Shown here piece after piece: positions 21,835 through 22,600 of a stretch of DNA of 64,000 nt. This DNA comes from a bacterium (GTDB lineage: Bacteria; Verrucomicrobiota; Verrucomicrobiia; Verrucomicrobiales; Akkermansiaceae): NCBI GenBank assembly GCA_018222765.1, contig JAAEZT010000002.1, positions 108,111 through 172,110 of the forward strand. The letters run 5' to 3'. The translations under genes and the position numbers were made by a program. Each line of letters opens with the position of its first letter. Position 1 is the stretch's first letter. Under the pieces are notes generated by a model that searched no databases, was not told where the DNA came from, and saw only the letters and a list, made by a program, of their open reading frames with translations.

Positions 21835-21868
21835 AGCGACTGAGAAACTTTTAAAGGGTTCACGATGA

Positions 21869-21907
21869 ACGCTCCGGGATCAATTTCCGGGGCGTTTTTC
21901 ATTTTTT
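21869..21907 (+). terminator. intrinsic terminator after rpsU
   Basis: A 9-bp stem (ACGCTCCGG at 21869-21877 with CCGGGGCGT at 21887-21895, one G-T pair) with a 9-base loop is followed by two T-runs to 21907. It lies 34 bases after the rpsU stop and so separates rpsU from the selenoprotein gene. Confidence 0.85.
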
Positions 21908-21981: not shown

Positions 21982-22536
21982 ATGAAACCTACCATCTTAT
22001 TTGGAATGATGTGTGCTTTCGGGGCGTGCGCCGCGCCCGCCCTAGCCGCACCTGCTGAAGCTGCTGACGCGTCTTCAATCTCTGGCTTCTCGGTTTCCTT
22101 CTCAGGAGGGGGATGAGGCGCTGCTGCCAAGGCCAGTTCGGCCTTAAAATCGATTGAAGGTGTAGACAAAGTTCTCCTCTCCGGCACGACTGCGTTCGTC
22201 ACAGTCAAAGGGGAGGCTGCGCTCTCCCGCACTGCCGTCCGAAAAGCATTCGACCCCAAAGGCCTTAAGGTTAAGGGGCTGAAGAAGGCATCAGTTGCAA
22301 AACCCAAGGAAGCTTACCAGCTGGCAATCACTGGAGGCACATGAGCCCAGACCAATGAAAGAGTGCGTGGCACTCTCGAAAAGTTGGACGGTGTCGGTGC
22401 AGCCTTCGTCAACCGCGGTCAAGTCATGTTGCTCATGACCACCGAGGAGACCTTCAACGAAGAAGAGGTTGCCAAGATTTTGAAACGCTATAAATCGACA
22501 GTTAAGTCATCCTCTAAGGTAGCTTCTCCGCTTTAA
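21982..22536 (+). CDS. selenoprotein: exported tandem HMA-like protein with two selenocysteines (in-frame TGA)
   Basis: Reading through two TGA codons (22114-22116 and 22342-22344) gives 184 residues ending at TAA 22534-22536. Residues 1-22 are a signal peptide (MKPTILFGMMCAFGACAAPA). Two homologous beta-alpha-beta-beta-alpha-beta units follow. Unit 1 has strand FSVSFSG, then GGG-U45-GAAAKASSALKSI, EGVDKVLLSG, VTVKGEAALSRTAVRKAF. Unit 2 has YQLAITG, then GGT-U121-AQTNERVRGTLEKL, DGVGAAFVNRG, NEEEVAKILKRY. This is the heavy-metal-associated (HMA) pattern. The TGA sits where the first Cys of the G-M-x-C-x-x-C site lies, and the second Cys is Ala or Thr. Each TGA has its own SECIS-type hairpin downstream. 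TGA is an ordinary stop in neighbours (leuD, aroA), so general code change is excluded. Role inferred: periplasmic metal, metalloid or redox chemistry. SelA, SelB, SelD and tRNA-Sec are not in this window. Alternative: a twice-interrupted pseudogene, less likely. Confidence 0.85.
22129..22145 (+). promoter_or_regulatory. bacterial SECIS element for Sec45
   Basis: AAGGCC (22129-22134) and GGCCTT (22140-22145) form a perfect 6-bp stem with loop AGTTC. The loop G (22136) lies 20 bases after the TGA, inside the 16-37 base range known for bacterial SECIS elements, and is within the first two loop positions as SelB recognition requires. Confidence 0.75.
22360..22376 (+). promoter_or_regulatory. bacterial SECIS element for Sec121
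   Basis: AGAGTGC (22360-22366) and GCACTCT (22370-22376) form a perfect 7-bp stem with loop GTG. The first loop base is G at 22367, 23 bases after the second TGA. The stem sequence is unrelated to that of the first element, so the structure rather than the sequence is conserved. Confidence 0.75.
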
Positions 22537-22560
22537 GCATTTAACAGTATATTTAACCGG

Positions 22561-22600
22561 AAACCCCGATGTGCCCAGCACCTCGGGGTTTTTTGTTTTT
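22561..22600 (+). terminator. intrinsic terminator after the selenoprotein gene
   Basis: AACCCCGA (22562-22569) pairs with TCGGGGTT (22583-22590), with further GTG/CAC pairing inside, and is followed by a T-rich run. It starts 25 bases after the TAA, supporting the idea that the complete frame through both TGA codons is one functional transcription unit. Confidence 0.88.

Follow-up and report, generated by a model that had tools for sequence, protein, structure and literature searches.

Introduction

How should a bacterial reading frame be read that is broken only by two TGA codons, each lying at the same place in one of two homologous units? Such a frame may be the remnant of a decayed gene, or it may encode a protein with two selenocysteine (Sec) residues, in which case it is of interest what such a protein would do. 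The frame considered here lies in a 64-kb stretch of DNA, which was analysed as a whole and is referred to below as the window. We describe the frame and its conservation, the decoding signals and machinery, the predicted fold and its relatives, and then weigh the functions that have been considered.

The reading frame and its two TGA codons

The sequence-only reading had proposed one frame of 184 codons with TGA at codons 45 and 121, and had expected ordinary gene callers to miss or split it. Re-reading the frame bears out both points: it holds exactly two in-frame TGA codons, within the motifs GGG-U-GAA and GGT-U-AQT, it closes with a TAA stop codon (22534-22536), and the list of open reading frames made by a gene caller has no entry for it. 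A bSECIS-like scan was also run over both strands of the 64 kb, combining a TGA, an open frame on both of its sides and a published-type hairpin with an energy of -8 kcal/mol or below; the sole TGAs that passed were codons 45 and 121. The features of the locus are collected in Table 1. At the C-terminus (22516-22533 in the window) most members of the family carry a basic stretch followed by a short hydrophobic ending, SPL, LPF or LPL.

Table 1. Features of the selenoprotein locus, in window coordinates
Feature	Coordinates	Strand	Remarks
Terminator-like site of the preceding rpsU	21867..21897	+	upstream of the selenoprotein gene
Selenoprotein CDS	21982..22536	+	184 aa, Sec at 45 and 121, homologues in relatives
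Signal peptide (MKPTILFGMMCAFGACAAPALA)	21982..22047	+	cleavage site inferred by eye
HMA-like domain 1	22075..22299	+	residues 32-106, b-a-b-b-a-b, AlphaFold2; Pfam HMA 23.8 bits
Sec 1 (UGA codon 45)	22114..22116	+	aligns with the first Cys of the HMA CxxC motif
SECIS 1	22129..22145	+	stem AAGGCC/GGCCUU, loop AGUUC, 18 nt after UGA
HMA-like domain 2	22309..22521	+	residues 110-180, b-a-b-b-a-b, AlphaFold2; structure comparison
Sec 2 (UGA codon 121)	22342..22344	+	aligns with the first Cys of the HMA CxxC motif
SECIS 2	22360..22376	+	stem AGAGUGC/GCACUCU, loop GUG, 22 nt after UGA
Terminator-like hairpin of the selenoprotein gene	22559..22593	+	T run, -23.1 kcal/mol, z -5.8

Distribution and conservation of the TGA codons

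Verrucomicrobiota, the phylum in which the sequence-only reading had proposed to look, is indeed that of the window, which comes from the family Akkermansiaceae of the order Verrucomicrobiales. The double-TGA gene is present in at least 52 genomes of Verrucomicrobiales, mostly Akkermansiaceae. Among 116 relatives, 39 genomes carry the full gene and one carries a fragment, and sampling 387 genomes of the order Verrucomicrobiales added 13 further carriers. The carriers include Roseibacillus persicicus KCTC 12988, Rubritalea profundi SAORIC-165 and Rubritalea marina DSM 17716, as well as a number of MAGs from Akkermansiaceae and Verrucomicrobiales. Outside the Verrucomicrobiales no two-TGA homologue was found in 388 genomes across the phylum, and a scan of about 85,000 species with two short peptide patterns, whose reach extends to moderately close relatives, returned Verrucomicrobiales only. 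Marine relatives of Akkermansia are, by this distribution, the predicted makers of an exported double-Sec protein.

In a codon-level alignment TGA stands at both columns in all 39 sequences, with protein identity falling to about 23%, and the distance between the two Sec residues is 75-77 residues in all 45 members. No version of the gene with Cys, TAA or TAG at either Sec column was found, so that the check on homologues suggested earlier, whether TGA or other stop codons occupy these positions, turned out entirely in favour of TGA. Of the stop-free matches considered as candidate Cys versions, the three that were inspected (L092, L096 and L047) are separate HMA proteins with CxxC, and several more are about 750-830 aa long, a length that suggests ATPases. 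The same reading had named non-synonymous drift as the mark of a pseudogene. Purifying selection is seen instead, with a median dN/dS between close pairs of 0.107 before, 0.109 between and 0.072 after the two TGAs; a value of about 0.1 past the second TGA indicates that this segment too is selected as protein.

Selenocysteine machinery and SECIS hairpins

The assembly to which the window belongs (4.33 Mb, 97.8% complete) encodes the whole set of Sec genes that had been proposed as a check, namely selA (488 bits), selB (272 bits, with a product of 647 aa), selD (374 bits) and a tRNA-Sec with the anticodon tca. The selD gene (C60:58831-59760, L052) is itself a selenoprotein gene, with one in-frame TGA in the context CGG-U-ASKLG. 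Over the 116 genomes, selA is found in 38 of 40 family-positive and 22 of 76 family-negative genomes (Fisher p 1.7e-12, a guide only, the genomes being related), and the two carriers that lack it are incomplete assemblies (72% and 83%).

The published bSECIS model places a hairpin 16-37 nt after the UGA, with a stem of 4-16 bp, a loop of 3-9 nt, a G within the first two loop positions and a minimum free energy of at most -7.5 kcal/mol (PMC13188914). Both hairpins of the window agree with this model in every respect, at -8.3 and -8.4 kcal/mol, and the family as a whole preserves the loop, the spacing and the stem: the loops are mostly CGUG(C/U) or AGUUC, and the distance from the UGA to the loop is 18 nt at the first hairpin and 21-22 nt at the second, most relatives having 21 nt and a loop of 5 nt there. 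Counted without bulges, 29 of the 39 first stems reach the energy limit, and 17 of the 39 second stems do. Compensatory changes are found in the stems after the first UGA (AAGGCC/GGCCUU, CAAAGCC/GGCUUUG, GAGAGCC/GGCUCUC) as well as after the second (GAGAUUG/CGAUCUC, AAGAGCG/CGCUCUU, CAAGGCC/GGCCUUG). Pairing was observed in 243 of 266 cells for SECIS 1 and 241 of 252 for SECIS 2, the maxima of 2000 column shuffles being 228 and 192, and it far exceeds the pairing in slid registers. Resampling of synonymous codons gives z values of 13.4 for the first and 16.6 for the second hairpin, which are inflated by the kinship of the sequences, while several types of compensatory pair are independent of it. 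Folding of single sequences, in stretches of 61 and 91 nt, yielded no significant z-score, the significance coming from the comparative test alone; Rfam reported no RNA family at threshold, and no SECIS family even at E<=10. Judged on these comparisons, the predicted SECIS stems are kept far beyond the demands of the protein sequence.

The interpretation of the frame as a selenoprotein gene has thus gained support from the machinery, the universal TGA, purifying selection and SECIS covariation. From these genomic comparisons we regard it as almost certain that the frame represents a family of dual selenoproteins, with tandem HMA-type domains holding one Sec each and no second Cys, a separate SECIS for each UGA, and the machinery encoded alongside.

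Fold and metal site

A signal peptide is predicted at the N-terminus, and five relatives (L042, L091, L095, L100 and L101) have a lipoprotein-type lipobox instead, therefore export from the cytoplasm is predicted. The AlphaFold2 model, computed from 16 sequences with Sec read as Cys, has a mean pLDDT of 82 and a pTM of 0.72, residues 1-28 being of low confidence, and displays the beta-alpha-beta-beta-alpha-beta order twice, as the sequence-only reading had proposed for two homologous units. Structure comparison with VIA places domains of HMA7, CCC2A and ATP7A/B together with CopZ at the top (Z 10.7-10.2; rmsd 1.6-2.3 over 65-73 residues), with Z values for domain 2 of 10.7 to HMA7 and 10.3 to CopZ (2qif), and Foldseek likewise finds HMA folds. 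At the level of sequence, Pfam HMA (PF00403) scores the window protein just below its gathering cut-off (23.8 against 24.8 bits) and matches 12 of 27 members at E<=0.01, the best at 1.2e-7. The family profile matches the tandem domains of CopA (1p6t) at 2.4e-9, with Sec falling on the first Cys of GMTCAAC, and also matches the N-terminal domain of MerA, MerP and CopZ. In a domain tree, which is unrooted and built on too few columns to bear on a single duplication as the origin of the two domains, domain 2 forms one side of a branch.

The GMxCxxC site with two Cys is absent: Sec takes the place of the first Cys and there is no second ligand, the residue at that position being Ala or Gly in most first domains and Thr in most second domains. 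Cys occurs anywhere in the domains in only 3 of 45 members, and never at a common position. Since Sec stands at the first Cys and the second is gone, the protein is HMA-derived and does not have a canonical HMA metal site. The earlier proposal of a tandem HMA protein with Sec for the first Cys and loss of the second is supported by the profile, the AlphaFold2 model and the comparisons with PDB structures.

Other HMA-type proteins of the group

Several other HMA-type proteins were observed in these bacteria. The genome of the window encodes a second HMA-type selenoprotein (L097, C31:17873-18190), of a single domain with a signal peptide and the motif TGLR-U-ASGC (UxxxC), whose UGA is followed by a strong hairpin, AAGUGC-AGGCU-GCACUU; it scores 36 bits against NF041115 (cut-off 95) and has relatives in L046, L048 and L049. 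Together with L098 these make up a set of single-domain U-x-x-x-C selenoproteins, with their own hairpin after each UGA. Another two-Sec architecture is seen in L093 (G645:C47:5529-6035), where two near-identical HMA domains stand in tandem, each with U-x-x-x-C, and an identical SECIS-like sequence follows both TGAs (78.9 bits against NF041115, cut-off 95). In L092 (G645:C48) and L094 (G680:C202), whose genomes also hold the double-U protein, an exported tandem HMA protein has CxxC in each domain, and its N-terminus is rich in Cys. The predicted HMA-type proteins of the group range from CxxC through UxxxC to the lone U.

Comparison with known families

HMA-type selenoproteins as such are already known, through NF041115, NF045683 and a 'MerP' of the GOS metagenome. 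A review of 2026 catalogues 119 families and subfamilies of prokaryotic selenoproteins, and none of them is a protein of two HMA domains that each hold a single Sec (PMC13188914). No model of NCBIfam release 20 reaches its cut-off for the members scored, and the part of the papers and sequence databases that was covered holds no description of such a family. The double-Sec HMA family therefore appears to be uncatalogued, and no cysteine version of it appears to be known.

Of the known types, the closest in kind is the metal-binding (seleno)protein NF041115 (UxxU_metal_bind), likewise of HMA type with Sec at the CxxC site; at E<=1 its model picks up 26 of 27 family members. It is, however, a single domain of 74 positions in which both Cys are replaced (UxxU), whereas the present protein has two domains with a lone Sec each; three members scored singly reach 17.2-28.5 bits against the cut-off of 95 and have no UxxU. 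Copper ATPases also carry two HMA folds in series (Bacillus subtilis CopA, 1p6t and 2rml; human ATP7B domains 3-4 and 5-6). Unlike them, the double-Sec protein is free and exported, with no ATPase and no CxxC and with Sec for Cys, and a whole-chain TM of about 0.3 to their tandem HMA shows that the arrangement of the domains differs.

MerP and MerT/CopZ_Se (NF045683) are likewise of HMA type and bear mercury-family annotation, and the 'MerP' selenoprotein of the GOS metagenome contains Sec in some marine bacteria (PMC2398784). The double-Sec protein differs from these mercury types in its double domain and in having no MerT part and no mer operon found, the GOS protein being set apart by its description; against MerP (TIGR02052) it scores 19.5 bits, the cut-off being 92.55. 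MbdU (NF045648), a metal-binding double selenoprotein, shares the possession of two Sec and, by its name, a suggested metal binding, but it is distinguished by a CU motif, and its model gives no match to the window protein at E<=10.

Genomic context

The gene is preceded by rpsU and followed by a convergent spermidine-synthase-like gene. The terminator-like site of rpsU makes it probable that the selenoprotein gene is a transcription unit of its own, and together with the strong hairpin behind the gene this makes a single-gene unit most likely. Neighbours vary between genera: beyond the group of close relatives there are no conserved operon partners, and no metal-resistance or mer genes are found among the conserved neighbours.

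In its own genome no HMA domain above the Pfam cut-off was found that could be a delivery partner. The nearest is a weak exported tandem protein (C87:76404; L118:1366-1854), whose first domain is without Cys and whose second has GLVCSSC; it lies a few kb from selB, possibly by chance. MerA above its cut-off is likewise absent from the genome, the best matches (310 and 292 bits) having been set aside as they look like ordinary flavin disulphide reductases, and a search for MerT found no match in this genome, nor in any of the control genomes, so that this absence carries no weight.

Possible functions

The explanation we place first is that the protein, exported by its signal peptide, or by a lipoprotein signal in some relatives, would bind a soft metal. 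The two selenolates would work as a pair, because the domains have no other conserved thiol or selenol, and they would capture the ion of a soft metal or organometal (Hg(II), methylmercury, Ag(I) or Cu(I)) in a two-coordinate Se-M-Se clamp, linking either the two domains of one chain or one molecule to another. The role would be one of sequestration in the periplasm and not of delivery to a classical HMA-containing ATPase. We give the whole explanation, from the exported dual-Sec HMA protein to sequestration by a clamp of paired selenolates, a probability of roughly one half, the final step being the one that keeps it low. It is ranked first on account of the HMA ancestry and of the named HMA-type selenoproteins, since NF041115 and MerT/CopZ_Se carry names of metal binding or heavy-metal transport. 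The lack of metal-resistance neighbours, and of an HMA protein or MerA over cut-off in the genome, speaks against a plain delivery role like that of CopZ or MerP; the missing neighbours, delivery partner and MerA count against the clamp as well, and so does the loss of the second ligand, which would weaken a classical HMA site.

A close second, somewhat less probable though a serious competitor, is a redox protein without metal, in which Sec45 and Sec121 would be joined in an intramolecular diselenide, or one would enter a mixed selenenyl-sulphide with a partner, and which would serve in the periplasm to reduce peroxides, disulphides or oxidised metalloids. Against this reading, the HMA fold is not known as a scaffold of oxidoreductases, and no reductase partner is linked to the gene. 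On the other hand, no chalcogen side chain besides the two Sec is conserved in the domains, and neither Sec occurs without the other, as fits a bonding pair; the absence of Cys forms suggests a chemistry beyond sulphur, and the genomic context is without a metal-handling partner. Moreover, a redox role is assumed for most selenoproteins (PMC13188914).

The handling of selenium itself, with selenium or tellurium stored or carried in the periplasm as selenol adducts, would agree with a Sec-only family so strongly tied to genomes with selA, but two Sec per chain make a poor store and no neighbours are conserved beyond close relatives, and we consider it improbable. A pseudogene, a sequencing error or a genome-wide reassignment of TGA in place of Sec, which the breaking of the frame for an ordinary gene caller might suggest, is already refuted by the comparative data, namely identical TGA positions in 52 genomes, dN/dS of about 0.1 with SECIS covariation, and full Sec machinery with no other TGA in the window that combines an open frame with a SECIS.

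Significance

Methods for finding selenoproteins mostly seek a Cys homologue of the Sec column, and no Cys homologue was found in any genome searched, therefore this is a family of the kind that such methods miss. With it the known selenoproteome gains a conserved Sec-only protein, in which a metal-binding fold that is well understood bears two selenolates and no other conserved chalcogen. The chances seem to us about even that an HMA metallochaperone fold has here been turned into a selenium-only periplasmic device of two domains, with Sec45 and Sec121 serving as a switchable diselenide or as a Se-metal-Se clamp, and with no cysteine counterpart in the family. What selenium is capable of as compared with sulphur thereby becomes testable on a small soluble protein of cultured bacteria.
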